This document shows positions 1 to 36,950 of a stretch of DNA of 64,000 bases, piece by piece. The stretch lies in the NCBI GenBank assembly GCA_963678705.1, contig OY783209.1:18709311-18773310 (forward strand), read 5' to 3'. The position numbers were made by a program, and so were the translations under genes. Below the pieces are notes generated by a model that was not told the origin of the DNA, made no database searches, and saw only the letters and a program-made list of their open reading frames with translations. This stretch comes from Panorpa germanica (Eukaryota; Arthropoda; Insecta; Mecoptera; Panorpidae). Positions within the stretch are counted from its first letter, which is position 1. Every line of letters begins with the position of its first letter.

Positions 1-871
1 CTTCAAGTTCTTTTTCCTTTTCATCTGTATTCAGAACTTCTTCTGAATTATTCTGGCTTTGTATTTTAATATTTGTGGGCACATTGATCGCCATTTCTTT
101 TTGTAATTTAATATCGTTTTTATTTTCATTTACTTCTGTGTCCCGTTTTTCTTCTGAATTTTGGTTTTGTATTTTGATTTCTGTACTCTCGTTGTTTATG
201 ATTACTTCTTGTAGTTCCGTCCGTACATTGTCTATTTCTTTATTTTCAATGCTTTGTCCGATTATTGTTTCACACGGTTTTTGTGTTGACGGCTCGTTAG
301 TATGGATTTCGTGGTTCGTCATATCTTCTATTATTAATTCTAGAAGCTCATCCATTGTGTTAGGATTTTGGCGTCTTAATTTACATCCAAGGGGATCGTT
401 TAGCTCCTCTATGAAATCTCTCACCATCAGGGAATCGTGATGTTTTGCCAGTGCTTTCATATTTAAAGATGTTTTATTGTGAAGTGTGTTCAAAACATTA
501 AAGTTGTTAAGTGATTCTAAACATCTAAAGTAATAAGTAATAACTTTCTTATTAGGCTTTCGTTTAAGTGCTGTTGTATGCGGGATATGGCTGCGGTTTT
601 TAGTATAACTATTTATTAAAATAGTTTTTGATTTCTCCCTTGTATTAATATGTTTATTCTTTATTAAACTTGCTGCGTCTCCAATAATCTTGCTTTTTAT
701 AGCTGAGAGCAATAGACCGTTATTCCTAATAGCTTTTTTTTTATCTTCATTTTTACCGGGGAATATGGCAAAATTATCTATGATCACTTCGCAATCTTCT
801 ATAAAATTCGTCAGCGAATTGTTTCCATTATATTCCTTTACATAATTTAGATAAATATGGAATGTCTCCAT
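1..871 (-). CDS. gag: Errantivirus gag, unit A copy (runs off window)
   Basis: Reading leftward from an ATG at 871 the frame stays open to the window edge (290 codons). It matches the gag frames in units B and C, and the sense copy at 30902. Gag is the structural capsid/nucleocapsid precursor of an env-bearing Gypsy-type element. The family call rests on position directly after the LTR, tRNA-Ser-type PBS and leader, and on the env-bearing relative in this window. In the conserved part, a DFIEELNDPL segment is followed by NP and a leucine-rich helix, the layout of errantivirus Gag C-terminal capsid. No zinc knuckle is visible. Of the three antisense copies this is the only one without a break in the visible part: the A-run at ~733 keeps nine bases and the codon mutated to stop in unit C is intact. 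Confidence 0.75.
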   Translation of the reverse strand, partial: METFHIYLNYVKEYNGNNSLTNFIEDCEVIIDNFAIFPGKNEDKKKAIRNNGLLLSAIKSKIIGDAASLIKNKHINTREKSKTILINSYTKNRSHIPHTTALKRKPNKKVITYYFRCLESLNNFNVLNTLHNKTSLNMKALAKHHDSLMVRDFIEELNDPLGCKLRRQNPNTMDELLELIIEDMTNHEIHTNEPSTQKPCETIIGQSIENKEIDNVRTELQEVIINNESTEIKIQNQNSEEKRDTEVNENKNDIKLQKEMAINVPTNIKIQSQNNSEEVLNTDEKEKELE

Positions 872-1544
872 TTTGATTTATAGTGTAACTTTAATTTAAG
901 AAAAGTTATTTTGTAAACATTTTATTTTTAAAAATTATTATTATTATATAGTTAATTTGCAAGTATTTTATTATATTACGTTATAGTATTTATTACGTTA
1001 TGTAATTAATATTTTATTTTAATATTACTTTTAGTATTATTATAATTTTCGTTAGGCCTATATAAGCGATTTTTATTCCTTTTTAGAAAATTATTATTTA
1101 ATTATTGTGTATTACGTTGCGTAATTTATATTTTATTTTAATATTTGGTAGGCCTGTATAAGCGATTTATACTCCTTTTTAAATTTAATATCTGTTTTAG
1201 GCCTGTATAAGCGATTTATACTCCTTTTTAAACAGAAAATATTATTGTAAAAATAATAATAATTTTTGTTTTTGTGAAATATGAATATAGAAAGGAAATA
1301 TGAATGAGTACTCACATTACGATTATCACCGCGATGCCTTGCGAGATCTTTATGTCCATATGCTGCTGCTAGTGGGTCGATGAGCCTCGGAGCACTTCAA
1401 TTTCTGTTTCTATTTCACTCCACTATTTATTAAGTTTACTTTATTCTTTAACTTAATTTTTGTAGGTTTCGAAATATTAAGTTAACCATAAAAATGGAAA
1501 AATTTACAGCGATTGTAATTCCTTAATATCCTGCCGACTGCGCC
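872..1544 (-). other. Errantivirus 5' leader with repeated 34-bp motif, unit A
   Basis: Untranslated region between PBS and gag. It contains three copies of a motif whose core reads TATAAGCGATTTATACTCC on the plus strand, starting with AGGCCT, at about 1054-1086, 1150-1184 and 1199-1233; the first is more diverged. The PBS complement (CCGACTGCGCC) lies at 1534-1544. Confidence 0.75.
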
Positions 1545-1832
1545 AATTAAAGTTTAAGTAATTTAGACTTTAATAAAAAAAACAATTTATTTTAGTTTTA
1601 CTTAAATAATATTTATTTGGACTAATAATCACTGTGCGATACAGCTTATGCCTAGTCTCAAATGGTGAGCCAGCCAATTACTATCTGCGCGATGCAGATT
1701 ATACATGAACTTAAACTAACTAGATTAAGATTAACATATTACTTATATACTACTTTATCATATCTAAAGTGCATGGTCAGCAAAGATACTGAAGAGACAT
1801 TATTAGTTTGTGTCGTATGGAATGTGAGTTAT

Positions 1833-1836
<4 letters not shown>
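1545..1836 (-). repeat. Errantivirus 5' LTR, unit A (292 bp)
   Basis: The boundary at 1545 is set by the adjoining PBS complement. The outer boundary at 1836 is set by the terminal sequence TGTTATAAC (seen here as its complement), shared with the two LTRs at 29864 and 36961. It is followed at once by (AT)n. It is about 52 bp shorter than those LTRs because it lacks one copy of an internal ~58-bp repeat. Confidence 0.88.
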
Positions 1837-1895
<59 letters not shown>

Positions 1896-1912
1896 TATAG
1901 ATATGTATATAT
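1837..1912. repeat. (AT)n microsatellite next to the LTR, unit A
   Basis: Alternating TA broken by a few AAA steps, directly outside the LTR end. Length differs between the three units, as expected for a slipping simple repeat. Confidence 0.95.
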
Positions 1913-4301
1913 ACACAGAAACAACGCGTAACATATTATTTAGGCGTGACTTGGGCGTGGCTAAGTTTATATGAGGTTTTCAATGTTAATTTGGGACTAA
2001 ACATCGTAATTTGTCCGATAACAGCCATATGTAGAAACAAAGAAGGAGCAATAATCGTATGTAAAAGATACCATAAACGGGTTCTTTTAAGTCAGCAATA
2101 GGGTAACAATTTCGACTCGGGTATAGAGCTAAAAGTAAACATTTTTTTTAGTTTTTGGAAAATCCGAGGAAGCCAAAAGTTTTAGAATTTTTTCTCTACG
2201 AAAAAGGAAATTTTCAAAATATTAAACAAACAGTTTTTATTCTACTATACGAATTTCATCATAGATTCTCAAATTCTTTAAACATACACTTGGAACATTA
2301 CAATATAGGAGTAGCCGCTACTTTGTTTCGAATAAGATAACTCCAAGCTTATGTCCCCCTACTTACAAATCTCTTAGCATTTAATTTTCAAAACGAATAC
2401 TTTTCTGTAATCCTACATAATAAATTTCAATATATGTACATTGCTTTAAATAATTGTTCGCTTATTTAATGTTTATTAAAATTCATTTTTGCCCATTTCA
2501 CTTGCTACAATGCCAAGCGCCTCATTCTTAATCACCACAATCCTAGCTACGCCACTAGTTAGCACTCCCCGCTGTTCAAATTCGCACAGTTGCTGAATTT
2601 AAATTATAGTGTTCTTATTAATGGTAAGTAGACAAAATACATAATTAATTCTAGTTATTTAATATTTGGGGCGATTGACTCAACCCCATAGTGATTTTAT
2701 AGCACTATGCCTCCAAAACGCACTCGCTGTGAATACATCGCATTCTATTGCTGGATGAAATTTGAATATCTATTGTGATTATCTATCTAATGTATTTTTT
2801 TAAATATATTTTCTTTACTTATATATTAATTTAAATCTGCATAGTAAATTTCTGCTAGATACCATATACGAACATTATCACATTATTTTTATTTTACATT
2901 GATTTTTAGCACCTTGGATTTTATTAGGTCTGTCCTTATATATCTTATTTCTCATTTAAGTCTCACTCAATAAGAAACGATTACTTGAAATTATAATTAT
3001 AGGTGTAAAACACTATGTATGACCCATACGAGTTATAGCTACTAAATAACGCGACAGACGCTGGAAAACGGTTTATTTTGATTTTATAAATATTTGCTTA
3101 TTACTACCTTTAATATATACTCCTGTTCTATCCTTATAATGCTCCATGTCACTTCCTTTTTCACAGCTTCAACGAACTCAAACCTTGTTCCTATTAATAC
3201 AAATTTATCCTTGGTAAATAAGGCTTACCTTCTGGTAAATAAATAAAATAGCGAGAAGCTCTGCATTTGAAAGAGAAAGCTTTACGATTAACAGCTGTCC
3301 GTCGCTGACGTTTGGCGCATACAAACTTTTTCTCTAGCACCGTCAGGCTCGTTATTTAATAGCCGACATACTATAACATTCTTGAAGAGCATAAATTTAT
3401 TGTGTTTTACTTATTTATAAATTAATTCTATCACAGATTCACAATAATTTACATGTTACTGAACAAGTAGGCTTGTGTCCTATGTCTTAATTTTTATAAA
3501 AGTGTACTATGTATTGATAAAATGCGTTACTAGAACCTCAAATGTTCAATTATTTTTTAATAACTCCTTATATTTCAAGAGATATTAACAATTAAAAAAG
3601 TAATTTTGTCTCTTTAATTATTAAAGGAATTCAACGCTGTAAGACATTCCAATTGCATGTGACATCACAACCGCTATTTGCTATCTCTTTTATACGACAA
3701 AGCTTAAAAGAAATATATTCTTGACAAAACTCTGACAAGTTTACAGGTTACCAACCTTAGAACCTTTCAGCTACAAATCTCTGCTATATGTATATCAAAA
3801 TATAAAATATTATTTACGGCTATTTCAAAGAACAATAAAGTTTCAATATTATGTCTGCCGTAACAGGGTTAAATAAAATGAAAACCTTTTATTCTTTGAC
3901 TTGACTTGATTATTTCGACACCCAACAGCTACAAAACATTAATACAACGCAGCACTGATCTACTCAAAAACTTTTTTTTTATACCTATTATATTGTTATA
4001 ACTAGTTTATATAAACTATTGTTAAGTACACAATCCTAAAAAATTAAAATTAAAATAGAACTATTTAAAATAATAAAGTAAAGTTTAACTCTTAGAATTC
4101 AATACAATTTTACTGTTTCAAAATTAGCTCTCACATATAAAATATTATTCATATTCTATATAAGTTTTCTTGAGTTTCCGATTTTTTCGTAAATAAATAA
4201 TACTATTTATTTTACCAATTCGAATTTGTTGTTTTCTGTTGCTGTTTTGTTATTGTTTGTCGTTGTTTATTGATTGATGTTGGATGTTGGATATTGAATA
4301 T
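1913..4301. other. Unrecognised unit-specific DNA, unit A
   Basis: AT-rich sequence shared with unit B, and with C only from ~3690 on. A 61-codon open stretch at 2155-2340 is identical in A and B, but only because the units are recent duplicates. It has no recognisable domain and is absent from C. No element ends or RNA genes were seen. Confidence 0.6.
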
Positions 4302-5733
4302 TTATTATATTATTGAATGGTTTTGTTGGATATTGAGAATTAAAAAACAAAGGAAAAAAATATAAGAAATGACAAATGAAATATACTGATGTTTAGAAGT
4401 CTGATATTAGAGATTTATCATTATGTTTTAATTGTATCAACCGGCGTTGTCCGTATGTGTTATATTTAGTTAATAAGTGAGTGTGTAATGTGAGTCTGTC
4501 GTAACAATTACCGTTGTCTACAAATTAATTATTAAGAGTCGTAATGAAATAATTTAAACTTCAATAAAAATAACATATGCTGCTAATGTCTAAGCAAAAT
4601 ATTCGGTGTAAGATATAATTATTATTAAGTAACACCAGAATAATATTATTATTTAAACATTATGAAGACACAATTTACGTACAAGCTAATTTTGTAAGCA
4701 TCACGCAACCTTTCAAAGTCGTAACAATTTGCATATGTTAGTAATATAATGAATATAAAATATGACAAATAACTTAATACAAATAGTTAATATAACCAAA
4801 CCGCTGCCAAATTATTTCTAGTAAACAGCATTTTGCTATTCCAAATATTGTTACCGCCCAAATTATTAATGGCAAACCACTTCGCTATAATAAATAATAG
4901 TTTACGTTTGATAATTAGAATTAATCCATCATCAACATTGTCGCAGATGTATATTATATTATATTCAATATAACCTCGTATTAGCAAACTTATAAATAAA
5001 TTTAGTTATTAAAATATTTATTATATTATTGAATGGTTTTGTTGGATATTGAGAATTAAAAAACAAAGGAAAAAATTATAAGAAATGACAAATGAAATAT
5101 ATTGATGTTTAGAAGTCTGATATTAGAGATTCATCATTATGTTTTAATTGTATCAACCGGCGTTGTCCGTATGTGTTATATTTAGTTAACAAGTGAGTGT
5201 GTAATGTGAGTCTGTCGTAACAATTACCGTTGTCTACAAATTAATTATTAAGAGTCGTAATGAAATAATTTAAACTTCAATAAAAATAACATATGCTGCT
5301 AATGTCTAAGCAAAATATTCGGTGTAAGATATAATTATTATTAAGTAACACCAGAATAATATTATTATTTAAACATTATGAAGACACAATTTACGTACAA
5401 GCTAATTTTGTAAGCATCACGCAACCTTTCAAAGTCGTAACAATTTGCATATGTTAGTAATATAATGAATATAAAATATGACAAATAACTTAATACAAAT
5501 AGTTAATATAACCAAACCGCTGCCAAATTATTTCTAGTAAACAGCATTTTGCTATTCCAAATATTGTTACCGCCCAAATTATTAATGGCAAACCACTTCG
5601 CTATAATAAATAATAGTTTACGTTTGATAATTAGAATTAATCCATCATCAACATTGTCGCAGATGTATATTATATTATATTCAATATAACCTCGTATTAG
5701 CAAACTTATAAATAAATTTAGTTATTAAAAATA
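4302..5733. repeat. 716-bp direct duplication unique to unit A
   Basis: The segment beginning TTATATTATTGAATGG occurs twice in a row (about 4302-5017 and 5018-5733), ending each time in sequence of the type TTTAGTTATTAAAA. Units B and C have it once (B ~13910-14625; C ~21065-21780). Copies are nearly identical, so this arose after the units multiplied, or by collapse or expansion in assembly. Confidence 0.9.
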
Positions 5734-6550
5734 TCGTCGCAATACAATTAATTTAGTTAGTAGTACGTATTGTTGTCGTAGAACCATAGTTTATAACTTT
5801 ATTACCTAGAACAAACATTTCATCGCAATACAATCAGTTTAGTTAGTAGAACTTATCGTTGTCGTAGAACCATAGTTTATAACATTATTACCTAGAACAA
5901 ACATATCATCGCAATACAATCAATTTAGTAAGTTGTACTTATCGTTGTCGTAGAACCATAGTTTATCGCATTATTATACAAACAAAACGTATCGTTGCAA
6001 TACAATCAATTTAGTTAGTAGTACTTATCGTTGTCGAAAAACCATAGTTTATCGCATTATTATACAAACAAAACGTATCGTAGCAATACAATCAATTTAG
6101 TTAGTAGTACTTATCGTTGTCGTAGAACCATAGTTTATAACATTATTATACAAACAAAACGTATCGTTGCAATACAATTAATTTAGTTAGAAGTACTTAT
6201 CGTTGTCGTAGAACCATAGTTTATCGCAATATTATACAAGCAAAACGTATCGTAGCAATACAATCAATTTAGTTAGTAGTACTTATCGTTGTCGTAGAAC
6301 CATAGTTTATCGCAATATTATACAAACAAAACGTATCGTTGCAATACAATCAATTTAGTTAGTAGTACTTATCGTTGTCGTAGAACCTAGTATATCGCAT
6401 TATTACATAAACCAAACTTATCGTCGCAATACAATCAATTTAGTTAGTAGAATTCATCGTTGTCGTAGAAACTAGTATATAGCATTATTGTCTAGTTCAA
6501 ACTTACCGTCACAATACAATAGATATAGATATTGGAACTATTGTTCTAGT
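5734..6550. repeat. 86-bp minisatellite, 9 monomers, unit A
   Basis: The landmark TCGCAATACAAT recurs every 86 bp from 5737 to 6424, with a final degenerate landmark at 6510. Most monomers share TTAGTTAGTAGTACTTATCG and GAACCATAGTTTAT. The last two monomers diverge toward the flank. Confidence 0.95.
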
Positions 6551-7780
6551 ATAAGACTACAAATTATTCGTAGTAACAAGAAATATTATATTTCTCTGTT
6601 AAATTAACAAATCATACAGTCCTCTTTAAATCTAAGACTTAAGCGACCAACCGAAACCACTTCAATAAATTAGAGCATTAAAGGTCGAATACGTCGTGTA
6701 CAGTCACCTTTAAATAAATTAAATTAGTTTTTTTTATTTTAAATTATCTTCCGGTATTTTTCTTCTATATGAGTCTACTTCTTTTGTTTGTAAGACAATC
6801 TCCTAGGTGATTTAGTACGTAACAGATTTTGCATGCATTTTTTTGGGCTGCGGCAGCTCTTCCAATTTTGCCACCTTCTTTTAAAACCATTTTAATTGAT
6901 CTCATTCCATTGTATTCTGGATATGGCATACGGCAGGATTTTTTTTTACTTTGATAACCGTCACATTATGTTCCTTTGAAATGTATTCTACTTAAAACTC
7001 TATGTTGTGTATTTTCTTAATGGCATATTTATTTACTTTTTCTAATAACACTTTGTTACCAATTTTGTAATGTCAGATATTTATGTGGTGTTTGACATGT
7101 GATTTTGCCTCCTTTTCGCTGCTATGCTATATTACAAAACTGTTTAATAGGAATTATGTAATTTACTACCCAACAGTAGTACAAATTAAATTTAAAAAAA
7201 TAGAATTTGTAAACTTGAAACTTTTCTTACTTTATTATGGTGAACATTTAGGAATTATGAGCACTTTCGCTAAAATAATTAAAACTCAAAATTAACCAAA
7301 TCTTTGATGTATTACTACATGTCCATTAACGTTTTAAATAAAAAAATGTTTCCGAATAGTGAGTAAGTAACATTTATTTTAAAGTATTTTACTGTTATTA
7401 ATTGACTTTTATTGCTATTTTTCGTATTTAGCATTGACCTATGTTATTGAAACCGTAATTAATGAATATTGTTTGCATATAATATTAATTTAGGCAATTA
7501 ACCACATCCTTTTAAATTTTAATTTTAATTTTTCAGTCGAAATCAAAAATAACACAATCGCTTTTCACATTATTTATAAGTTAAATAATTATTATCTTAG
7601 TGTATAAGTGCTTGCTCAAAGTAACTGGAATAATAATTACTAGAATGTAAGTAATTATTTTAAAATATATTAACAATTAAATTATGATAGATACGTCTTA
7701 TTTTAAGAAAATGAATAAGCTGTCATAGCAATTTGAGGTGATATATAGAATGTGTTAAAGACATGTATAAAACTAATAAT
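6551..7780. other. Unrecognised unit DNA with a coding-like remnant, unit A
   Basis: Shared with unit B. On the minus strand around 6770-7075 two adjacent frames read like decayed protein (see the better preserved B copy at 15750-16053). Otherwise no feature is recognised. Confidence 0.5.
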
Positions 7781-8068
7781 AATAACAGATACAGACGACA
7801 CAGTGGGCGAGAGCATTGATGCTTGACGCCGACTGCTGTGTCTTCGGGTTCGATCCCCAAACCAGATATATATTTTCTGGGTTTGGTTATTATGAACTTA
7901 TATTGATTATGGTCATACATAATCGTACAGTTATTAGGCAGTGGTGTAGCCCACATATATGAGGCCACAACACCATAAATACTGCCCACATTGAAGGAGG
8001 TCGTCGTTGATAGGACTCAGCATCGGAAATAGGCCGACGTTAAATAAAAAAAAAAAATAACAGATACA
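7781..8068 (+). mobile_element. tRNA-derived SINE with target duplication, unit A
   Basis: A box-B consensus GGTTCGATCCCC lies at 7847-7858 and a box-A-like ACACAGTGG about 45 bp upstream, the RNA polymerase III promoter layout of tRNA-derived SINEs. The body ends in an A-rich tail. Both sides carry the 13-bp direct repeat AATAACAGATACA (7781-7793 and 8056-8068), showing target-primed insertion. Body about 262 bp. SINEs depend on a partner LINE; which one cannot be told here. Confidence 0.88.
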
Positions 8069-8525
8069 ATGATGGTGACTAAATGCGTCAGTGTAAATTA
8101 TTATTGAAAATTAAACGATTGGTATACGTATGGTTTATAATTAGGGAATAGATTTATGGGATTCGAAATTCTGTCTGTGTTCCATTACCAAATTCTGTAA
8201 TCTGAATCTCAAAATCACCAATCACTAAAATAATATAGCAATTAGATAATGAAATTGCGATCTACCATACAATTACAATTTTACTTTATGTTATAAACAT
8301 TATATTCGTAATATAATTATTAATTTCTATTGTTTGGTAATTATTTGATTTGCCTTCTTAAGATTTGCTTGATCCGGCTTTCATTCACTTTATACTAATA
8401 ATACTACCAAGCTGAATTTAACACAAAAATTACACAAATCAAATTTTTTTTGAATTTTTATTATTCATTTACTTAGTTACACTTGGTCTAATGACCAACC
8501 AGCAATTTATCCATAATTAATACAT

Positions 8526-8582
<57 letters not shown>

Positions 8583-8587
8583 TATAC
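8069..8587. other. Unrecognised DNA ending in (AT)n, unit A/B border
   Basis: No gene or element seen in 8069-8520. 8521-8587 is an AT/TA microsatellite with one AAA interruption, lying just left of the antisense errantivirus fragment. Together with the AT repeat at 11457 it brackets that fragment. Confidence 0.6.
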
Positions 8588-8947
8588 GATATTAAGGATT
8601 GTCATTTCAATTGACATTTCCTTAATTTTAAGTTTTTCTTTTAAGGCTTAGTTGTGCAACAGTTAAAGTACCTCTTCATTCGGATTAAAGTGCAGTCTGT
8701 CATTTGTTGTGTCTGTCTGTTGTGTTTTGAAAAAGTATTGTTTATCGTAATATTTGTAGTAATTTATTTAAATGGTTGTTCTGTATAATTATTTTAATAG
8801 TTCATACAATTTTCATTAATAAGGTGGTTGTCCGTTTTAGGGTTTTATTATTTTTAGTTTTAAATTTCGGAGTTAAATATTATATACTCAGGTGGGTTTG
8901 GTTGCTTGCGGTTGCGTATTTGAATTGTTGAGGTTCGGGTAGAAATT

Positions 8948-9421
8948 TTAATTTTTCGGGAAGTATTGAAGACTTTTTGAAGTTGATCTTATCAGTAAGT
9001 TCTTTATAGTAAAGTAAATATATGTTTTATTATTTTTATTCGTCATGATATTCGTCAAATATTCATCTATCCAGTTATTATTTTTATTTCGTTTGGTTCC
9101 ATATAGTTGCTTTAGTTGTGCCGAATTTCTAATCTTCTGTCCACGAATTATTTCTTTTCTGTGATCATTTATCCACAAAGTGTGTGCCTCGTTTTCTGAA
9201 TCTTCTTGTTTTTCTGGAATGCATTTAGCTTTGTTTCTTTTTTCCTTTTCAATTTTTTCTTTTATATTAAAATTTTGATTTTTATTATTTCCTGCTTTTC
9301 TTTGCTTTATATTGTGTAATTTTTTTACTTCAGAATATTGCATATTTTGTTTTTCTGGTTTTTCTTGGTTGATGTTTTGTTGATTTTTTACTTTAAAATC
9401 TAGAAAGTTTGGATTTTTTGA
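8948..9421 (-). pseudogene. Downstream part of gag after an in-frame stop, unit B
   Basis: Same frame as gag, separated from it by one TAA. It is lysine- and glutamine-rich and open for about 130 codons from an internal ATG at 9343. The sense relative at 31783-32010 also has a stop at nearly the same place, so the stop may be natural for this family (a gag end with a readthrough or shift) or may be shared damage. Function unknown. Confidence 0.6.
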
Positions 9422-10491
9422 TTATTGCTTAACATTTTGTTGATTTTGTATTTCGAAATGTTGTGAATTTTGATTCTCTGATTCTTGTTTGATATTTTGC
9501 TGATTTTCTACTTTGAAATCTTGCATGTTCTGATCTTCTGTGTTTTGTTTGACGCTTATTTTTCCTTGCTTCATTTTTACTTCAACAATTGTCTTTTTCT
9601 TTACTTCTGTTTTGTTAAACTCTTCAAGTTCTTTTTCCTTTTCATCTGTATTCAGAACTTCTTCTGAATTATTCTGGCTTTGTATTTTAATATTTGTGGG
9701 CACATTGATCGCCATTTCTTTTTGTAATTTAATATCGTTTTTATTTTCATTTACTTCTGTGTCCCGTTTTTCTTCTGAATTTTGGTTTTGTATTTTGATT
9801 TCTGTACTCTCGTTGTTTATGATTACTTCTTGTAGTTCCGTCCGTACATTGTTTATTTCTTTATTTTCAATGCTTTGTCCGATTATTGTTTCACACGGTT
9901 TTTGTGTTGACGGCTCGTTAGTATGGATTTCGTGGTTCGTCATATCTTCTATTATTAATTCTAGAAGCTCATCCATTGTGTTAGGATTTTGGCGTCTTAA
10001 TTTACATCCAAGGGGATCGTTTAGCTCCTCTATGAAATCTCTCACCATCAGGGAATCGTGATGTTTTGCCAGTGCTTTCATATTTAAAGATGTTTTATTG
10101 TGAAGTGTGGTCAAAACATTAAAGTTGTTAAGTGATTCTAAACATCTAAAGTAATAAGTAATAACTTTCTTATTAGGCTTTCGTTTAAGTGCTGTTGTAT
10201 GCGGGATATGGCTGCGGTTTTTAGTATAACTATTTATTAAAATAGTTTTTGATTTCTCCCTTGTATTAATATGTTTATTCTTTATTAAACTTGCTGCGTC
10301 TCCAATAATCTTGCTTTTTATAGCTGAGAGCAATAGACCGTTATTCCTAATAGCTTTTTTTTATCTTCATTTTTACCGGGGAATATGGCAAAATTATCTA
10401 TGATCACTTCGCAATCTTCTATAATATTCGTCAGCGAATTGTTTCCATTATATTCCTTTACATAATTTAGATAAATATGGAATGTCTCCAT
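9422..10491 (-). pseudogene. gag: Errantivirus gag, unit B copy (frameshifted)
   Basis: ATG at 10491. A run of nine A (minus strand) seen in units A and C has eight here (~10354), shifting the frame after roughly 45 codons. A long frame then stays open to a TAA at 9422. The C-terminal part is rich in Q, N, K and E and contains 20-residue repeats (see the finding at 9330-9560). The first half matches the capsid-like part described for unit A. Past the TAA, the same frame continues as coding-like sequence to ~8948. Confidence 0.82.
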
Positions 10492-11164
10492 TTTGATTTA
10501 TAGTGTAACTTTAATTTAAGAAAAGTTATTTTGTAAACATTTTATTTTTAAAAATTATTATTATTATATAGTTAATTTGCAAGTATTTTATTATATTACG
10601 TTATAGTATTTATTACGTTATGTAATTAATATTTTATTTTAATATTACTTTTAGTATTATTATAATTTTCGTTAGGCCTATATAAGCGATTTTTATTCCT
10701 TTTTAGAAAATTATTATTTAATTATTGTGTATTACGTTGCGTAATTTATATTTTATTTTAATATTTGGTAGGCCTGTATAAGCGATTTATACTCCTTTTT
10801 AAATTTAATATCTGTTTTAGGCCTGTATAAGCGATTTATACTCCTTTTTAAACAGAAAATATTATTGTAAAAATAATAATAATTTTTGTTTTTGTGAAAT
10901 ATGAATATAGAAAAGAAATATGAATGAGTACTCACATTACGATTATCACCGCGATGCCTTGCGAGATCTTTATGTCCATATGCTGCTGCTAGTGGGTCGA
11001 TGAGCCTCGGAGCACTTCAATTTCTGTTTCTATTTTACTCCACTATTTATTAAGTTTACTTTATTCTTTAACTTAATTTTTGTAGGTTTCGAAATATTAA
11101 GTTAACCATAAAAATGGAAAAATTTACAGCGATTGTAATTCCTTAATATCCTGCCGACTGCGCC
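10492..11164 (-). other. Errantivirus leader and PBS, unit B
   Basis: Same layout as unit A: three copies of the AGGCCT...TATAAGCG motif near 10674, 10770 and 10819, and the tRNA-Ser-type PBS complement ending at 11164. Confidence 0.75.
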
Positions 11165-11452
11165 AATTAAAGTTTAAGTAATTTAGACTTTAATAAAAAA
11201 AACAATTTATTTTAGTTTTACTTAAATAATATTTATTTGGACTAATAATCACTGTGCGATACAGCTTATGCCTAGTCTCAAATGGTGAGCCAGCCAATTA
11301 CTATCTGCGCGATGCAGATTATACATGAACTTAAACTAACTAGATTAAGATTAACATATTACTTATATACTATTTTATCATATCTAAAGTGCATGGTCAG
11401 CAAAGATACTGAAGAGACATTGTTAGTTTGTGTCGTATGGAATGTGAGTTAT

Positions 11453-11456
<4 letters not shown>
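11165..11456 (-). repeat. Errantivirus 5' LTR, unit B (292 bp)
   Basis: Same ends and length as the unit A LTR, differing by a few bases. It is bounded by the PBS complement and by (AT)n at 11457. Confidence 0.88.
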
Positions 11457-11501
<45 letters not shown>

Positions 11502-11519
11502 TATAGATATGTATATATA
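11457..11519. repeat. (AT)n microsatellite, unit B
   Basis: AT repeat directly outside the LTR, shorter than in unit A. Confidence 0.95.
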
Positions 11520-14500
11520 CACAGAAACAACGCGTAACATATTATGTAGGCGTGACTTGGGCGTGGCTAAGTTTATATGAGGTTTTCAATGTTAATTTGG
11601 GACTAAACATCGTAATTTGTCCGATAACAGCCATATGTAGAAACAAAGAAGGAGCAATAATCGTATGTAAAAGATACCATAAACGGGTTCTTTTAAGTCA
11701 GCAATAGGGTTACAATTTCGACTCGGGTATAGAGCAAAAAGTAAACATTTTTTTTAGTTTTTGGAAAATCCGAGGAAGCCAAAAGTTTTAGAATTTTTTC
11801 TCTACGAAAAAGGAAATTTTCAAAATATTAAACAAACAGTTTTTATTCTACTATACGAATTTCATCATAGATTCTCAAATTCTTTAAACATACACTTGGA
11901 ACATTACAATATAGGAGTAGCCGCTACTTTGTTTCGAATAAGATAACTCCAAGCTTATGTCCCCCTACTTACAAATCTCTTAGCATTTAATTTTCAAAAC
12001 GAATACTTTTCTGTAATCCTACATAATAAATTTCAATATATGTACATTGCTTTAAATAATTGTTCGCTTATTTAATGTTTATTAAAATTCATTTTTGCCC
12101 ATTTCACTTGCTACAATGCCAAGCGCCTCATTCTTAATCACCACAATCCTAGCTACGCCACTAGTTAGCACTCCCCGCTGTTCAAATTCGCACAGTTGCT
12201 GAATTTAAATTATATTGTTCTTATTAATGGTAAGTAGACAAAATACATAATTAATTCTAGTTATTTAATATTTGGGGCGATTGACTCAACCCCATAGTGA
12301 TTTTATAGCACTATGCCTCCAAAACGCACTCGCTGTGAATACATCGCATTCTATTGCTGGATGAAATTTGAATATCTATTGTGATTATCTATCTAATGTA
12401 TTTTTTTAAATATATTTTCTTTACTTATATATTAATTTAAATCTGCATAGTAAATTTCTGCTAGATACCATATACGAACATTATCACATTATTTTTATTT
12501 TACATTGATTTTTAGCACCTTGGATTTTATTAGGTGTGTCCTTATATATCTTATTTCTCATTTAAGTCTCACTCAATAAGAAACGATTACTTGAAATTAT
12601 AATTATAGGTGTAAAACACTATGTATGACCCATACGAGTTATAGCTACTAAATAACGCGACAGACGCTGGAAAACGGTTTATTTTGATTTTATAAATATT
12701 TGCTTATTACTACCTTTAATATATACTCCTGTTCTATCCTTATAATGCTCCATGTCACTTCCTTTTTCACAGCTTCAACGAACTCAAACCTTGTTCCTAT
12801 TAATACAAATTTATCCTTGGTAAATAAGGCTTACCTTCTGGTAAATAAATAAAATAGCGAGAAGCTCTGCATTTGAAAGAGAAAGCTTTACGATTAACAG
12901 CTGTCCGTCGCTGACGTTTGGCGCATACAAACTTTTTCTCTAGCACCGTCAGGCTCGTTATTTAATAGCCGACATACTATAACATTCTTGAAGAGCATAA
13001 ATTTATTGTGTTTTACTTATTTATAAATTAATTCTATAACAGATTCACAATAATTTACATGTTACTGAACAAGTAGGCTTGTGTCCTATGTCTTAATTTT
13101 TATAAAAGTGTACTATGTATTGATAAAATGCGTTACTAGAACCTCAAATGTTCAATTATTTTTTAATAACTCCTTATATTTCAAGAGATATTAACAATTA
13201 AAAAAGTAATTTTGTCTCTTTAATTATTAAAGGAATTCAACGCTGTAAGACATTCCAATTGCATGTGACATCACAACCGCTATTTGCTATCTCTTTTATA
13301 CGACAAAGCTTAAAAGAAATATATTCTTGACAAAACTCTGACAAGTTTACAGGTTACCAACCTTAGAACCTTTCAGCTACAAATCTCTGCTATATGTATA
13401 TCAAAATATAAAATATTATTTACGGCTATTTCAAAGAACAATAAAGTTTCAATATTATGTCTGCCGTAACAGGGTTAAATAAAATGAAAACCTTTTATTC
13501 TTTGACTTGACTTGATTATTTCGACACCCAACAGCTACAAAACATTAATACAACGCAGCACTGATCTACTCAAAAACTTTTTTTTTATACCTATTATATT
13601 GTTATAACTAGTTTATATAAACTATTGTTAAGTACACAATCTTAAAAAATTAAAATTAAAATAGAACTATTTAAAATAATAAAGTAAAGTTTAACTCTTA
13701 GAATTCAATACAATTTTACTGTTTCAAAATTAGCTCTCACATATAAAATATTATTCATATTCCATATAAGTTTTCTTGAGTTTCCGATTTTTTCGTAAAT
13801 AAATAATACTTTTTATTTTACCAATTCGAATTTGTTGTTTTCTGTTGCTGTTTTGTTATTGTTTGTCGTTGTTTATTGATTGATGTTGGATGTTGGATAT
13901 TGAATATTTATTATATTATTGAATGGTTTTGTTGGATATTGAGAATTAAAAAACAAAGGAAAAAATTATAAGAAATGACAAATAAAAAATATACTGATGT
14001 TTAGAAGTCTGATATTAGAGATTTATCATTATGTTTTAATTGTATCAACCGGCGTTGTCCGTATGTGTTATATTTAGTTAATAAGTGAGTGTGTAATGTG
14101 AGTCTGTCGTAACAATTACCGTTGTCTACAAATTAATTATTAAGAGTCGTAATGAAATAATTTAAACTTCAATAAAAATAACATATGCTGCTAATGTCTA
14201 AGCAAAATATTCGGTGTAAGATATAATTATTATTAAGTAACACCAGAATAATATTATTATTTAAACATTATGAAGACACAATTTACGTACAAGCTAATTT
14301 TGTAAGCATCACGCAACCTTTCAAAGTCGTAACAATTTGCATATGTTAGTAATATAATGAATATAAAATATGACAAATAACTTAATACAAATAGTTAATA
14401 TAACCAAACCGCTGCCAAATTATTTCTAGTAAACAGCATTCTGCTATTCCAAATATTGTTACCGCCCAAATTATTAATGGCAAACCACTTCGCTATAATA

Positions 14501-14624
14501 AATAATAGTTTACGTTTGATAATTAGAATTAATCCATCATCAACATTGTCGCAGATGTATATTATATTATATTCAATATAACCTCGTATTAGCAAACTTA
14601 TAAATAAATTTAGTTATTAAAAAC
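11520..14624. other. Unrecognised unit DNA, unit B
   Basis: Colinear with unit A 1913-5017. It includes a 61-codon open stretch at 11761-11946 without recognisable domains, and one copy of the 716-bp segment (~13910-14624). No element termini, RNA gene or host exon was recognised. Confidence 0.6.
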
Positions 14625-15525
14625 ATATCGTCGCAATACAATTAATTTAGTTAGTAGTACGTATTGTTGTCGTAGAACCATAGTTTATAACTTTATTACC
14701 TAGAACAAACATTTCATCGCAATACAATCAGTTTAGTTAGTAGAACTTATCGTTGTCGTAGAACCATAGTTTATAACATTATTACCTAGAACAAACATAT
14801 CATCGCAATACAATCAATTTAGTAAGTTGTACTTATCGTTGTCGTAGAACCATAGTTTATCGCATTATTATACAAACAAAACGTATCGTTGCAATACAAT
14901 CAATTTAGTTAGTAGTACTTATCGTTGTCGAAAAACCATAGTTTATCGCATTATTATACAAACAAAACGTATCGTAGCAATACAATCAATTTAGTTAGTA
15001 GTACTTATCGTTGTCGTAGAACCATAGTTTATAACATTATTATACAAACAAAACGTATCGTTGCAATACAATCAATTTAGTTAGTAGTACTTATCGTTGT
15101 CGTAGAACCATAGTTTATCGCATTATTATACAAACAAAACGTATCGTAGCAATACAATCAATTTAGTTAGTAGTACTTATCGTTGTCGTAGAACCATAGT
15201 TTATCGCATTATTATACAAACAAAACGTATCGTTGCAATACAATCAATTTAGTTAGTAGTACTTATCGTTGTCGTAGAACCTAGTATATCGCAATGTTAT
15301 ACAAACAAAACGTATCGTTGCATTGCAATCAATTTAGTTAGTAGAATTCATCGTTGTCGTAGAACCTAGTATATCGCATTATTACATAAACCAAACTTAT
15401 CGTCGCAATACAATCAATTTAGTTAGTAGAATTTATCGTTGTCGTAGAAACTAGTATATAGCATTATTGTCTAGTTCAAACTTACCGTCACAATACAATA
15501 GATATAGATATTGGAACTATTGTTC
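14625..15525. repeat. 86-bp minisatellite, 10 monomers, unit B
   Basis: Landmark TCGCAATACAAT every 86 bp from 14631, with the degenerate end landmark at 15488 (857 bp, ten periods). Monomer type matches unit A (GAACCATAG, TACAAACAAAACGTATCG). One monomer more than unit A, near the right end. Confidence 0.95.
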
Positions 15526-16759
15526 TAGTATAAGACTACAAATTATTCGTAGTAACAAGAAATATTATATTTCTCTGTTAAATTAACAAATCATACAGTC
15601 CACTTTAAATCTAAGACTTAAGCGACCAACCGGAACCACTTCAATAAATTAGAGCATTAAAGGTCGAATACGTCGTGTACAGTCACCTTTAAATAAATTA
15701 AATTAGTTTTTTTTATTTTAAATTATCTTCCGGTATTTTTCTTCTATATGAGTCTACTTCTTCTGTTTGTAAGACAATCTCCTAGGTGATTTAGTACGTA
15801 ACAGATTTTGCATGCATTTTTTTGGGCTGCGGCAGCTCTTCCAATTTTGCCACCTTCTTTTAAAACCATTTTAATTGATCTCATTCCATTGTATTCTAGA
15901 TATGGCATACGGCAGGATTATTTTTTACTTTGATAACCGTCACATCATGTTCCTTTGAAATGTATTCTACATAAAACTCTATGTTGTGTATTTTCTTAAT
16001 GGCATATTTATTTACTTTTTCTAATAACACTTTGTTACCAATTTTGTAATGTCAGATATTTATGTGGTGTTTGACATGTGATTTTGCCACCTTTTCGCTG
16101 CTATGCTATATTACAAAACTGTTTAATAGGAATTATGTAATTTACTACCCAACAGTAGTACAAATTAAATTTAAAAAAATAGAATTTGTAAACTTGAAAC
16201 TTTTCTTACTTTATTATGGTGAACATTTAGGAATTATGAGCACTTTCGCTAAAATAATTAAAACTCAAAATTAACCAAATCTTTGATGTATTACTACATG
16301 TCCATTAACGTTTTAAATAAAAAAATGTTTCCGAATAGTGAGTAAGTAACATTTATTTTAAAGTATTTTACTGTTATTAATTTACTTTTATTGCAATTTT
16401 TCGTATTTAGCATTGACCTATGTTATTGAAACCGTAATTAATGAATATTGTTTGCATATAATATTAATTTAGGCAATTAACCACATCCTTTTAAATTTTA
16501 ATTTTAATTTTTCAGTCGAAATCAAAAATAACACAATCGCTTTTCACATTATTTATAAGTTAAATAATTATTATCTTAGTGTATAAGTGCTTGCTCAAAG
16601 TAACTGGAATAATAATTACTAGAATGTAAGTAATTATTTTAAAATATATTAACAATTAAATTATGATAGATACGTCTTATTTTAAGAAAATGAATAAGCT
16701 GTCATTGCAATTTGAGGTGATATATAGAATGTGTTAAAGACATGTATAAAACTAATAAT
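15526..16759. other. Unrecognised unit DNA, unit B
   Basis: Colinear with unit A 6551-7780. It contains the coding-like remnant listed separately at 15750-16053. A 70-codon open stretch on the plus strand at 16062-16274 has no recognisable features. Confidence 0.5.
15750..16053 (-). pseudogene. Unrecognised coding-like remnant inside the repeat unit
   Basis: Reading minus from ~16053, about 50 codons stay open and include a segment beginning YKIGNKVLLEKVNKYAIKK and ending near IKVKNNPAVCHI, then a stop. An adjacent frame continues with a segment containing KEGGKIGRAAAAQKNACKIC. The composition is unlike the flanking AT-rich DNA. Family not recognised; it may be debris of an unidentified transposon or virus-like element. 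The unit A copy (~6770-7075) has an additional stop. Confidence 0.35.
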
Positions 16760-17046
16760 AATAACAGATACAGACGACACAGTGGGCGAGAGCATTGATG
16801 CTTGACGCCGACTGCTGTGTCTTCGGGTTCGATCCCCAAACCAGATATATATTTTCTGGGTTTGGTTATTATGAACTTATATTGATTATGGTCATACATA
16901 ATCGTACAGTTATTAGGCAGTGGTGTAGCCCACATATATGAGGCCACAACACCATAAATACTGCCCACATTGAAGGAGGTCGTCGTTGATAGGACTTAGC
17001 ATCGGAAATAGGCCGACGTTAAATAAAAAAAAAAATAACAGATACA
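16760..17046 (+). mobile_element. tRNA-derived SINE with target duplication, unit B
   Basis: Same insertion as in unit A: box B at about 16826-16837 and the same 13-bp AATAACAGATACA repeats (16760-16772 and 17034-17046). The shared insertion site shows that the SINE was present before the unit duplicated. Confidence 0.88.
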
Positions 17047-17518
17047 ATGATGGTGACTAAATGCGTCAGTGTAAATTATTATTGAAAATTAAACGATTAG
17101 TATACGTATGGTTTATAATTAGGGAATAGATTTATGGGATTCGAAATTCTGTCTGTGTTCCATTACCAAATTCTGTAATCTGAATCTCAAAATCACCAAT
17201 CACTAAAATAATATAGCAATTAGATAATGAAATTGCGATCTACCATACAATTACAATTTTACTTTATGTTATAAACATTATATTCGTAATATAATTATTA
17301 ATTTCTATTGTTTGGTAATTATTTGATTTGCCTTCTTAAGATTTGCTTGATCCGGCTTTCATTCACTTTATACTAATAATACTACCAAGCTGAATTTAAC
17401 ACAAAAATTACACAAATCAAATTTTTTTTGAATTTTTATTATTCATTTACTTAATTACACTTGGTCTAATGACGAACCAGCAATTTATTCATAATTAATA
17501 CATATATATATATATAAG

Positions 17519-17552
<34 letters not shown>

Positions 17553-17557
17553 TATAC
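17047..17557. other. Unrecognised DNA ending in (AT)n, unit B/C border
   Basis: Equivalent of 8069-8587. The microsatellite at 17500-17557 is shorter than its counterpart in unit A. Confidence 0.6.
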
Positions 17558-17917
17558 GATATTAAGGATTGTCATTTCAATTGACATTTCCTTAATTTTA
17601 TGTTTTTCTTTTAAGGCTTAGTTGTGCAACAGTTAAAGTACCTCTTCATTCGGATTAAAGTGCAGTCTGTCATTTGTTGTGTCTGTCTGTTGTGTTTTGA
17701 AAAAGTATTGTTTATCGTAATATTTGTAGTAATTTATTTAAATGGTTGTTCTGTATAATTATTTTAATAGTTCATACAATTTTCATTAATAAGGTGGCTG
17801 TCCGTTTTAGGGTTTTATTATTTTTAGTTTTAAATTTCGGAGTTAAATATTATATACTCAGGTGGGTTTGGTTGCTTGCGGTTGCGTATTTGAATTGTTG
17901 AGGTTCGGGTAGAAATT

Positions 17918-19462
17918 TTAATTTTTCGGGAAGTATTGAAGACTTTTTGAAGTTGATCTTATCAGTAAGTTCTTTATAGTAAAGTAAATATATGTTTTAT
18001 TATTTTTATTCGTCATGATATTCGTCAAATATTCATCTATCCAGTTATTATTTTTATTTCGTTTGGTTCCATATAGTTGCTTTAGTTGTGCCGAATTTCT
18101 AATCTTCTGTCCACGAATTATTTCTTTTCTGTGATCATTTATCCACAAAGTGTGTGCCTCGTTTTCTGAATCTTCTTGTTTTTCTGGAATGCATTTAGCT
18201 TTGTTTCTTTTTTCCTTTTCAATTTTTTCTTTTATATTAAAATTTTGATTTTTATTATTTCCTGCTTTTCTTTGCTTTATATTGTGTAATTTTTTTACTT
18301 CAGAATATTGCATATTTTGTTTTTCTGGTTTTTCTTGGTTGATGTTTTGTTGATTTTTTACTTTAAAATCTAGAAAGTTTGGATTTTTTGATTATTGCTT
18401 AACATTTTGTTGATTTTGTATTTCGAAATGTTGTGAATTTTGATTCTCTGATTCTTGTTTGATATTTTGCTGATTTTCTACTTTGAAATCTTGCATGTTC
18501 TGATCTTCTGTGTTTTGTTTGACGCTTATTTTTCCTTGCTTCATTTTTACTTCAACAATTGTCTTTTTCTTTACTTCTGTTTTGTTAAACTCTTCAAGTT
18601 CTTTTTCCTTTTCATCTGTATTCAGAACTTCTTCTGAATTATTCTGGCTTTGTATTTTAATATTTGTGGGCACATTGATCGCCATTTCTTTTTGTAATTT
18701 AATATCGTTTTTATTTTCATTTACTTCTGTGTCCCGTTTTTCTTCTGAATTTTGGTTTTGTATTTTGATTTCTGTACTCTCGTTGTTTATGATTACTTCT
18801 TGTAGTTCCGTCCGTACATTGTCTATTTCTTTATTTTCAATGCTTTGTCCGATTATTGTTTCACACGGTTTTTGTGTTGACGGCTCGTTAGTATGGATTT
18901 CGTGGTTCGTCATATCTTCTATTATTAATTCTAGAAGCTCATCCATTGTGTTAGGATTTTGGCGTCTTAATTTACATCCAAGGGGATCGTTTAGCTCCTC
19001 TATGAAATCTCTCACCATCAGGGAATCGTGATGTTTTGCCAGTGCTTTCATATTTAAAGATGTTTTATTGTGAAGTGTGTTCTAAACATTAAAGTTGTTA
19101 AGTGATTCTAAACATCTAAAGTAATAAGTAATAACTTTCTTATTAGGCTTTCGTTTAAGTGCTGTTGTATGCGGGATATGGCTGCGGTTTTTAGTATAAC
19201 TATTTATTAAAATAGTTTTTGATTTCTCCCTTGTATTAATATGTTTATTCTTTATTAAACTTGCTGCGTCTCCAATAATCTTGCTTTTTATAGCTGAGAG
19301 CAATAGACCGTTATTCCTAATAGCTTTTTTTTTATCTTCATTTTTACCGGGGAATATGGCAAAATTATCTATGATCACTTCGCAATCTTCTATAAAATTC
19401 GTCAGCGAATTGTTTCCATTATATTCCTTTACATAATTTAGATAAATATGGAATGTCTCCAT
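17918..19462 (-). pseudogene. gag: Errantivirus gag, unit C copy (nonsense mutation)
   Basis: ATG at 19462; 126 codons to a TAG at 19082-19084, where the A and B copies have a sense codon. The frame resumes (internal ATG at 19051) and is open to the shared TAA at 18392, and beyond it from 18313 to 17918. The A-run that is short in unit B is intact here. So units B and C carry different disabling changes, acquired after the duplication. Confidence 0.82.
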
Positions 19463-20135
19463 TTTGATTTATAGTGTAACTTTAATTTAAGAAAAGTTAT
19501 TTTGTAAACATTTTATTTTTAAAAATTATTATTATTATATAGTTAATTTGCAAGTATTTTATTATATTACGTTATAGTATTTATTACGTTATGTAATTAA
19601 TATTTTATTTTAATATTACTTTTAGTATTATTATAATTTTCGTTAGGCCTATATAAGCGATTTTTATTCCTTTTTAGAAAATTATTATTTAATTATTGTG
19701 TATTACGTTGCGTAATTTATATTTTATTTTAATATTTGGTAGGCCTGTATAAGCGATTTATACTCCTTTTTAAATTTAATATCTGTTTTAGGCCTGTATA
19801 AGCGATTTATACTCCTTTTTAAACAGAAAATATTATTGTAAAAATAATAATAATTTTTGTTTTTGTGAAATATGAATATAGAAAGGAAATATGAATGAGT
19901 ACTCACATTACGATTATCACCGCGATGCCTTGCGAGATCTTTATGTCCATATGCTGCTGCTAGTGGGTCGATGAGCCTCGGAGCACTTCAATTTCTGTTT
20001 CTATTTCACTTCACTACTTATTAAGTTTACTTTATTCTTTAACTTTATTTTTGTAGGTTTCGAAATATTAAGTTAACCATAAAAATGAAAAAATTTACAG
20101 CGATTGTAATTCCTTAATATCCTGCCGACTGCGCC

Positions 20136-20423
20136 AATTAAAGTTTAAGTAATTTAGACTTTAATAAAAAAAACAATTTATTTTAGTTTTACTTAAATAA
20201 TATTTATTTGGACTAATAATCACTGTGCGATACAGCTTATGCCTAGTCTCAAATGGTGAGCCAGCCAATTACTATCTGCGCGATGCAGATTATACATGAA
20301 CTTAAACTAACTAGATTAAGATTAACATATTACTTATATACTATTTTATCATATCTAAAGTGCATGGTCAGCAAAGATACTGAAGAGACATTGTTAGTTT
20401 GTGTCGTATGGAATGTGAGTTAT

Positions 20424-20427
<4 letters not shown>
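20136..20427 (-). repeat. Errantivirus 5' LTR, unit C (292 bp)
   Basis: Same ends as the unit A and B LTRs, bounded by the PBS complement at 20135 and (AT)n at 20428. Confidence 0.88.

Positions 20428-20460
<33 letters not shown>
20428..20460. repeat. (AT)n and deletion junction, unit C
   Basis: The AT repeat runs straight into TCTTTTATACGACAAAGC, which in unit A lies at ~3687 and in unit B at ~13290. The intervening ~1.8 kb is absent. The break lies in the simple repeat. Confidence 0.88.
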
Positions 20461-20461
<1 letters not shown>

Positions 20462-21780
20462 TTTTATACGACAAAGCTTAAAAGAAATATATTCTTGACA
20501 AAACTCTGACAAGTTTACAGGTTACCAACCTTAGAACCTTTCAGCTACAAATCTCTGCTATCAAAATATAAAATATTATTTACGGCTATTTCAAAGAACA
20601 ATAAAGTTTCAATATTATGTCTGCCGTAACAGGGTTAAATAAAATGAAAACCTTTTATTCTTTGACTTGACTTGATTATTTCGACACCCAACAGCTACAA
20701 AACATTAATACAACGCAGCACTGATCTACTCAAAAACTTTTTTTTTATACCTATTATATTGTTATAACTAGTTTATATAAACTATTGTTAAGTACACAAT
20801 CCTAAAAAATTAAAATTAAAATAGAACTATTTAAAATAATAAAGTAAAGTTTAACTCTTAGAATTCAATACAATTTTACTGTTTTAAATTAGCTCTCACA
20901 TATAAAATATTATTCATATTCCATATAAGTTTTCTTGAGTTTCCGATTTTTTCGTAAATAAATAATACTATTTATTTTACCAATTCGAATTTGTTGTTTT
21001 CTGTTGCTGTTTTGTTATTGTTTGTCGTTGTTTATTGATTGATGTTGGATGTTGGATATTGAATATTTATTATATTATTGAATGGTTTTGTTGGATATTG
21101 AGAATTAAAAAACAAAGGAAAAAATTATAAGAAATGACAAATGAAATATACTGATGTTTAGAAGTCTGATATTAGAGATTTATCATTATGTTTTAATTGT
21201 ATCAACCGGCGTTGTCCGTATGTGTTATATTTAGTTATTAAGTGAGTGTGTAATGTGAGTCTGTCGTAACAATTACCGTTGTCTACAAATTAATTATTAA
21301 GAGTCGTAATGAAATAATTTAAACTTCAATAAAAATAACATATGCTGCTAATGTCTAAGCAAAATATTCGGTGTAAGATATATTTATTATTAAGTAACAC
21401 CAGAATAATATTATTATTTAAACATTATAAAGACACAATTTACGTACAAACTAATGTCGTAGGCATCACGCAACCTTTCAAAGTCGTAACAATTTGCATA
21501 TGTTAGTAATATAATGAATATAAAATATGACAAATAACTTAATACAAATAGTTAATATAACCAAACCGCTGCCAAATTATTTCTAGTAAACAGCATTCTG
21601 CTATTCCAAATATTGTTACCGCCCAAATTATTAATGGCAAACCACTTCGCTATAATAAATAATAGTTTACGTTTGATAATTAGAATTAATCCATCATCAA
21701 CATTGTCGCAGATGTATATTATATTATATTCAATATAACCTCGTATTAGCAAACTTATAAATAAATTTAGTTATTAAAAA
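20461..21780. other. Unrecognised unit DNA, unit C
   Basis: Colinear with unit A ~3690-5017, including one copy of the 716-bp segment. No feature recognised. Confidence 0.6.
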
Positions 21781-23240
21781 CTTATTTAGCTATTAAAAGT
21801 AGTACTTATCGTTGACGTAGAACCACAGTTTATAACATTATTACCTAGAACAAACATATCATCGCAATACAATTAATTTAGTTAGTAGTACTTATCGTTG
21901 TCGTATAACCACAGTTTTAACAATATTACCTAGAACAAACATATCGTCGCAATACAATCAATTTAGTAAGTAGTACTTATCGTTGTCGTGAAACCACAGT
22001 TTATAACATTATTACCTAGAACAAACATATCATCGCAATACAATTAATTTAGTTAGTAGTACTTATCGTTGTCGTATAACCACAGTTTATAACAATATTT
22101 CCTAGAACAAACATATCATCGCAATACAATCAATTTAGTTAGTAGTACTTATCGTTGTCGTATAACCACAGTTTATAACATTATTACCTAAAACAAACTT
22201 ATCATCGCAATACAATCAATTTAGTTAGTAGTACTTATCGTTGACGTAGAACCACAGTTTATAACATTATTACCTAGAACAAACATATCATCGCAATACA
22301 ATTAATTTAGTTAGTAGTACTTATCGTTGTCGTATAACCACAGTTTATAACATTATTACCTAGAACAAACATATCGTCGCAATACAATCAATTTAGTTAG
22401 TAGTACTTTTAGTTGTCGTAGAACCACAGTTTATAACATTATTACCTAGAACAAACATATCATCGCAATACAATCAATTTAGTTAGTAGTACTTATCGTT
22501 GTCGTATAACCACAGTTTATAACATTATTTCCTAGAACAAACATATCATCGCAATACAATCAATTTAGTTAGTAGTACTTATCGTTGTCGTATAACTACA
22601 GTTTATAACATTATTACCTAAAACAAACTTATCATCGCAATACAATCAATTTAGTTAGTAGTACTTATCGTTGACGTAGAACCACAGTTTATAACATTAT
22701 TACCTAGAACAAACAAATCATCGCAATACAATTAATTTAGTTAGTAGTACTTATCGTTGTCGTATAACCACAGTTTATAACATTATTACCTAGAACAAAC
22801 ATATCGTCGCAATACAATCAATTTAGTTAGTAGTACTTATCGTTGTCGTAGAACCACAGTTTATAACATTATTACCTAGAACAAACATATCATCGCAATA
22901 CAATCAATTTAGTTAGTAGTACTTATCGTTGTCGTATAACCACAGTTTATATCATTATTACCTAAAACAAACATATCATCGCAATACAATTAATTTAGTT
23001 AGTAGTACTTATCATTGTCGTATAACCACAGTTTATAACATTATTACCTAGAACAAAAATATCGTCGCAATACAATCAATTTATTTAGTAGTACTTATCG
23101 TTGTCGTAGAACCATAGTTTATAACATTATTACCTAGAACAAACATAGCATCGCAATACAATCAATTAAGTTAGTAGAATTCATCGTTGTCATAGAACCT
23201 AGTATATCGCATTATAACATAAATCAAACTTACCGTCACA
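21781..23240. repeat. 86-bp minisatellite, 16 monomers with 5-mer higher-order repeat, unit C
   Basis: Sixteen periods from 21862 to 23236, plus a partial first monomer. Monomers differ in type from A and B (ACCACAG rather than ACCATAG; CCTAGAACAAACATATCATC). The variant TTGACGTAGAACC occurs at about 21812, 22241 and 22671, 430 bp (five monomers) apart with one 1-bp deletion. Other variants (TTTCCTAG; CCTAAAACAAACTTATC) keep the same order within each block. Confidence 0.93.
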
Positions 23241-23539
23241 AAACAATAGATATAGATATTGGAACCATTGTTGTAGTATAAGACTACAAATTATTCGTAG
23301 TAACAAGAAATATTATATTTTTCTGTCAAATTAACAAATCATACAGTCCACTTTAAATCTAAGACTTAAGCGACCAACCGAAAACACTTAAAAAAATTAG
23401 AGCATTAAAAGGTCGCATACGTCGTGTACAACTTTCTAAAAACTTTTTTCTAGTTAATTTTATTAATAATAATATTTTTGAAGTCAGAGTATTAACCATT
23501 GCTGATACTCTTTTTCTGTCGGTAATCATACTAGCTCAA
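23241..23539. other. Right end of the array and flank
   Basis: 23241-23427 matches the post-minisatellite flank of A and B. After GTCGTGTACA the sequence changes abruptly, marking the end of the array. Nothing is recognised between there and the LINE. Confidence 0.75.
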
Positions 23540-29863: not shown

Positions 29864-30207
29864 TGTTATAACACACATTCCATACGACACAAACTAACAA
29901 TGTCTCTTCAGTATCTTTGCTGACCATGCACTCTAGAGATAATAAAATAGTAAATAAGTAATATGTTAATCTTAATCTAATTAGTTCATGTATAAACTGC
30001 ATCGCGCAGTTAGTAATTGGCTCACCACTGTTTGAGTTCAAGTTTATGTATAATCTGCATCGCGCAGATAGTAATTGGCTGGCTCACCATTTGATACTAG
30101 GCATAAGCTGCATCGCGCAGTGATTTTTAGTCCAAATAAATATTATTTAAGTAAAATTAAAATAAATTGTTTTTTTTATTAAAGTCTAAATTACTCAAAC
30201 TTTAATT
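29864..30207 (+). repeat. Errantivirus 5' LTR (344 bp)
   Basis: Starts TGTTATAACACAC and ends TTTAATT. It holds three copies of a CTGCATCGCGCAG-type motif, the first two lying in an internal repeat of ~58 bp; the 292-bp LTRs have only two such motifs. A promoter is expected here, but no start site could be placed. Confidence 0.92.
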
Positions 30208-36939: not shown

Positions 36940-36950
36940 GATTTTATCTT

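Follow-up and report, generated by a model that had tools for sequence, protein, structure and literature searches.

A tandem array at the left end of the window

We analyzed 64,000 nucleotides of Panorpa germanica DNA (contig OY783209.1, positions 18,709,311 to 18,773,310), here called the window. Its left end is a head-to-tail array, the unit of which consists of an errantivirus-type fragment next to (AT)n, an element that by eye resembles a short interspersed nuclear element (SINE), undefined DNA, and an 86-bp minisatellite. Self-BLAST of the window gave unit spacings of 9621 and 8970 bp, with direct matches between 1-5014 and 9622-14622 (99.28% identity), between 5727-11488 and 14707-20459 (98.44%), and between 1-1868 and 18592-20459 (99.57%). 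Chance is excluded as the source of these repeats, which are kilobase-sized and 98-99.6% identical. The results confirm the initial annotation of this DNA on two points, namely three near-identical colinear units at the spacings given above, and the joining in each of a truncated errantivirus-type segment, with long terminal repeat (LTR), leader and gag, to other DNA and the minisatellite.

The array ends on the right at 23430, where the homology of the third copy stops after TACGTCGTGTACA while the first two copies stay alike beyond it. We defined the natural phase of the units (U1, U2, U3) from this end, and kept the letters A, B and C for the phase of the initial annotation, in which the repeat was real but the boundary was only that of the window. 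U1 (1-6702; unit A of the annotation) is open to the left, cut by the window edge, and aligns to 9622-15681. U2 (6703-15681; 8979 bp) is complete, and U3 (15682-23430; 7749 bp), the outermost unit, lacks about 1.8 kb at 20459/20460. The window thus holds one complete unit, one with an internal loss and one cut by its edge. All are head-to-tail and abut directly with no gap between them, and the array continues past the left edge.

The units, which the initial annotation called nearly identical, differ in structure. In the annotation's phase the third copy measures only 4839 bp (18592-23430); its missing 1.8 kb after the LTR extend from the (AT)n beside that LTR to the equivalent of 3682. U1 alone carries a second, plus-strand copy of a 716-bp segment (5013-5728; first copy 4297-5012), the two copies differing at 4/716 positions, and the minisatellites hold 8.8, 9.9 and 16.3 copies. 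Elsewhere the similarity is close. A-B divergence in 500-base bins across the whole unit ranged from 0 to 1.2%. In the body, by which we mean what the three units have in common (1-1836 and 3690-5013 in A, with the corresponding stretches in B and C), the differences were 13/3159 for A-B, 18/3150 for A-C and 21/3149 for B-C, a divergence of 0.4-0.8%. Four C-specific changes fall within 13 bases at 4685-4697, in an otherwise near-identical body.

With low-complexity DNA masked, a search of unit B at E<=1e-3 found no inverted repeats. The inverted pairs within 1-23430 are AT-repeat pairs, and the others pair the LTR with a plus-strand provirus further to the right (25 of the 34 pairs listed). 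When the segments 1914-3700, 3700-5012, 6490-8520 and 8587-8760 were compared with 23431-64000, the only match beyond the known viral end was one of 48 bp at 79% identity.

Minisatellite and terminal tail

The minisatellites were located with a tandem-repeat finder, and their monomers were assigned to two types, R and L, by a diagnostic block. All three lie on the plus strand. That of U1 (5732-6489; 8.8 copies) has 2 R-type monomers, 5 L-type monomers and 2 edge motifs; that of U2 (14620-15468; 9.9 copies) has 2 R-type, 6 L-type and 2 edge motifs; and that of U3 (21798-23199; 16.3 copies) has 16 R-type monomers and 1 edge motif. The inner minisatellites are thus two-part, R-type followed by L-type, whereas the outer one is of a single type. 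Monomers 1-5 show 0 differences each between A and B. The minisatellite pattern had 0 matches among viral contigs.

At 21949-23152 the minisatellite of C is also weakly periodic at a higher order, every five monomers or 430 bp. With 14/17 monomers used, the mean distance was 2.89 at lag 5 (9 pairs) and 3.67-4.88 at lags 1-4 and 6-9.

Beyond its minisatellite, U3 ends in a plus-strand tail (23238-23430) that is 5.3% diverged from both other tails. The tails differ at 2/190 positions for A-B and at 10/190 for each of A-C and B-C. Compared with the body, this is no step for A-B (Fisher p = 0.21) but a clear one for A-C (1.5e-6) and B-C (4.4e-6); the p values are post hoc, since the tail was picked after a slightly longer stretch had shown 14/210. 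The outermost copy therefore differs by 5.3% (10/190) after its minisatellite and by 0.6% before it. The step sits at the minisatellite, as no C-specific substitution is listed in 4698-5013, although gaps take up 12 columns of that stretch when C is compared. A terminal inverted repeat at the tail end was considered and rejected, as the window contains the end motif nowhere but at the ends of the three tails.

The viral fragment and its surroundings

Each unit carries the 5' end of an errantivirus-type element on the minus strand, comprising LTR, leader and gag. In U1 the fragment spans 1-1836, cut by the window edge, with the 5' LTR at 1545-1836 followed by the leader and by gag from an ATG at 871. 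In U2 it spans 8714-11456 (5' LTR 11165-11456, leader, gag), and in U3 a self-BLAST match places it at 17684-20427. The intact LTR edge lies at 1836, 11456 and 20427, and the gag side ends at 8714 and 17684, in the first copy outside the window. The fragments are incomplete: their homology to a related provirus nearby ends at 8714/17684, equivalent to 32411 of that relative. There is one LTR per fragment, and pol, env and a 3' LTR were not found in that of U2. The primer-binding region begins with GGCGCAGTCG, which we take to point to a serine transfer RNA (tRNA) primer.

Alignment to the provirus gave 93.5% identity for A 660-1717 against 31113-30035 (1082 columns). For B it gave 89.6% in the LTR plus leader (1253 columns, with 50 mismatches and 80 gaps) and 86.6% in gag (1341 columns, with 71 mismatches and 109 gaps). 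Read from its ATG, the gag frame is interrupted after 57 amino acids in B and after 126 in C; in A it stays open as far as the window edge. A domesticated gag was rejected because of the broken frames in B and C. Judged from its sequence, the fragment is a decayed passenger without coding function and shows no sign of a working gene. For a 246-amino-acid stretch of gag, none of 423 candidates proved a related protein at E<=0.001, two open reading frame (ORF) pieces within 15747-16051, pol-like to the eye, gave no Pfam match at E<=1, and Rfam at gathering scores and a tRNA scan found nothing.

The initial annotation described the array as built around an antisense virus. The second term holds only in the sense of the minus strand of the window. 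The first is unsupported, because the fragment contributes only some 2.7 kb to the 9 kb of a unit, its gag frame is interrupted in copies two and three (copy one being cut by the window edge), and both the right end of the array and the divergence step lie outside it.

The fragment is bordered by (AT)n microsatellites. One adjoins the LTR edge (11457-11519; also 1837-1913 and 20428-20459), and another lies on the opposite side (8520-8586; also 17498-17556), 127 bp past the gag end; these 127 bp had no match in 23431-64000 at E<=1e-3. A putative SINE-like retroposon with an A-tail, assigned by eye, lies on the plus strand at 7794-8055, flanked by the 13-bp direct repeat AATAACAGATACA (at 7781-7793 and again at 8056-8068), with a copy in U3. 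Among the remnants in the unit the errantivirus-type fragment is sure, whereas this second transposon, with its 13-bp direct repeat, is a by-eye reading only. The remainder is undefined AT-rich DNA and the minisatellite.

The related provirus (29864-37308, plus strand) lies 6.4 kb from the array end and is near-complete, decayed and of errantivirus type, with LTRs 98.5% alike. Its env is of the Gypsy/Baculo_F type (PF12259, Baculo_F, 8.2e-22; PF07253, Gypsy env, 3.3e-07), and Integrase_H2C2 was matched at 5.2e-11. Of seven provirus pieces scanned, four had no match or, outside pol and env, only matches that look like chance. The env ORF has 2 protein relatives, the one named being from Pieris, and against viral contigs it gave 2 pattern matches, 0 of them confirmed. 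ATAT stands on both sides of the provirus; errantiviruses have three palindromic targets, of which ATAT is that of one subgroup (PMC5408687).

Both strands of the DNA downstream of the array carry many transposon sequences, with a non-LTR-like reverse transcriptase (minus), the provirus (plus), a copia-type element (minus), two Ty3-type gag ORFs (plus) and PIF1 helicase pieces (plus). One Ty3-type gag ORF has 4 protein relatives, 3 of them named, from Solenopsis, Colletes and Eupeodes, which like Pieris are insects. The stretch at 27800-28500 (plus) resembles a decayed mariner transposase by eye; a minus-strand ORF scanned there had no good Pfam match. In the copia-type LTR element (42438-45961, minus), 216-bp direct repeats that are 97.2% alike enclose pieces of Pol_BBD, gag_pre-integrs and RVT_2. 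At 54902-58479, a 697-amino-acid gag ORF with a weak protease match under the cut-off is accompanied by direct repeats 655 and 686 bp long (94%); this element has (AT)n on both sides, like the viral fragment of the array. The PIF1-like helicase pieces (59776-61109) may come from a Helitron. A further Ty3-type gag ORF lies within 62217-63632, and the ORF after it stays open up to the right window edge.

Origin of the array and relation to known systems

We favor, with moderate confidence, a young and short tandem amplification of transposon-rich DNA, that is, a nascent composite satellite or macrosatellite formed via crossing-over in the minisatellite. The starting state would have been a region between two diverged repeat copies that both bore the minisatellite, one on the left (L) and one on the right (R). 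Mispairing and unequal crossing-over within the minisatellite may then have duplicated this region. The minisatellite inside the array would thereby have become an R/L hybrid, R-type first, while the right end would have kept a pure R copy together with the tail and flank of that copy. A later unequal exchange would have copied the hybrid unit, and local events may account for the 716-bp duplication, the 1.8-kb deletion and the changes in minisatellite copy number.

The location of the divergence step at the minisatellite, together with the two-part inner and one-type outer minisatellites, makes such an exchange a better fit than the insertion of a circle. The initial annotation had offered both circle-mediated and unequal amplification, and our results favor the second, through the minisatellite. 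A unit circle copied as rolling circle or extrachromosomal circular DNA and inserted as a concatemer would explain head-to-tail units with no gap between them, but a concatemer should be uniform. Because divergence in the outermost tail (5.3%) is roughly ninefold that in the body (0.6%), we give this origin very little credence. An assembly artefact, in which alleles or collapsed units were laid in tandem, appears to us just as doubtful. The body divergence would fall within the allelic range; however, three structurally different units would exceed two haplotypes, and at least one tandem step would probably remain.

The main rival is an older tandem duplication with decay at its edge. Here the units would have arisen once, through an unrelated event of break repair, and the inner ones would have been homogenized by conversion and unequal exchange while the outermost minisatellite and tail escaped. 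It is consistent with the diverged part being the outermost part, and with a minisatellite in C that has its own variant set and weak five-monomer periodicity. We nevertheless consider it unlikely, as it needs conversion of nearly all of the compared body of C to below 1%, halting at the minisatellite, and makes the order of two R-type and then L-type monomers in both A and B coincidental.

Several points weigh against crossing-over in the minisatellite. The same step would result if the edge had decayed while the body underwent gene conversion. A CAC variant occurs at 14/15 sites in C and at 0/7 in both A and B, so the bulk of C is not the recent source of the R-type monomers in A and B. The R-to-L switch is blurred in gapped distances to 14/17 C monomers (A2, minimum 3, mean 5.6; A5, minimum 4, mean 5.5; A7, minimum 4, mean 6.4). 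With the CAC variant absent from A and B and the switch blurred, a separate homogenization of C must be assumed. Moreover, the view is that of a 64-kb window, with the left edge of the array outside it.

The array might instead have been kept as a source of PIWI-interacting RNAs (piRNAs), its minus-strand gag-LTR copies giving RNAs against the related provirus. Antisense gypsy insertions are enriched in somatic piRNA clusters of several insects (PMC13172572), and the provirus is close by, but the neighboring elements with Pfam matches lie on both strands, unlike a one-strand cluster; such a role seems most improbable. A broader version of the crossing-over reading would see a satellite caught at birth, with the hybrid minisatellite and diverged tail recording the founding event and gag-LTR multiplied beside an env-bearing relative, possibly as a source of silencing RNA. 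We regard this as improbable. A three-unit array with a body less than 1% diverged and a visible step at the minisatellite offers a place for a direct test of the first step in satellite formation; otherwise the array is ordinary repeat biology.

In flamenco-like piRNA clusters (PMC10495008, PMC13172572), as in the array, a duplicated locus contains parts of LTR elements. D. simulans has two copies of flamenco, which are unalignable outside the promoter and dip1 region (PMC10495008); in contrast, the array units align throughout, and the array is known from DNA sequence alone. Among Drosophila errantiviruses, with their gypsy, ZAM and Idefix subgroups (PMC5408687), the nearby provirus finds parallels in its ATAT target and Gypsy/Baculo_F-type env, whereas the array copies are without pol, env and 3' LTR.

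Tandems can also form from LTR retrotransposons by ectopic LTR-LTR recombination (McGurk and Barbash, as told in PMC12628747). The common feature is that unequal exchange between dispersed repeats yields a tandem; here, however, the exchange point would lie in the minisatellite rather than in an LTR, and each fragment has one LTR.

The initial annotation called a unit of this make-up unusual. No errantivirus-bearing macrosatellite appeared among the literature matches listed, judged on titles and abstract openings, but composite units built from transposon debris have already been described. According to a 2025 review (PMC12628747), which calls the origin of composite monomers an open question, composite satellites consist of remnants from transposon "graveyards", and satellite monomers contain multiple short stretches similar to various transposons. 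By analogy, the array looks like a further case of this kind. Both have a unit of transposon remnants in a transposon-rich region that was then tandemized; the array differs in its 8-9 kb unit, in a viral part that is still recognizable, and in having only three units in the window, one of them cut.

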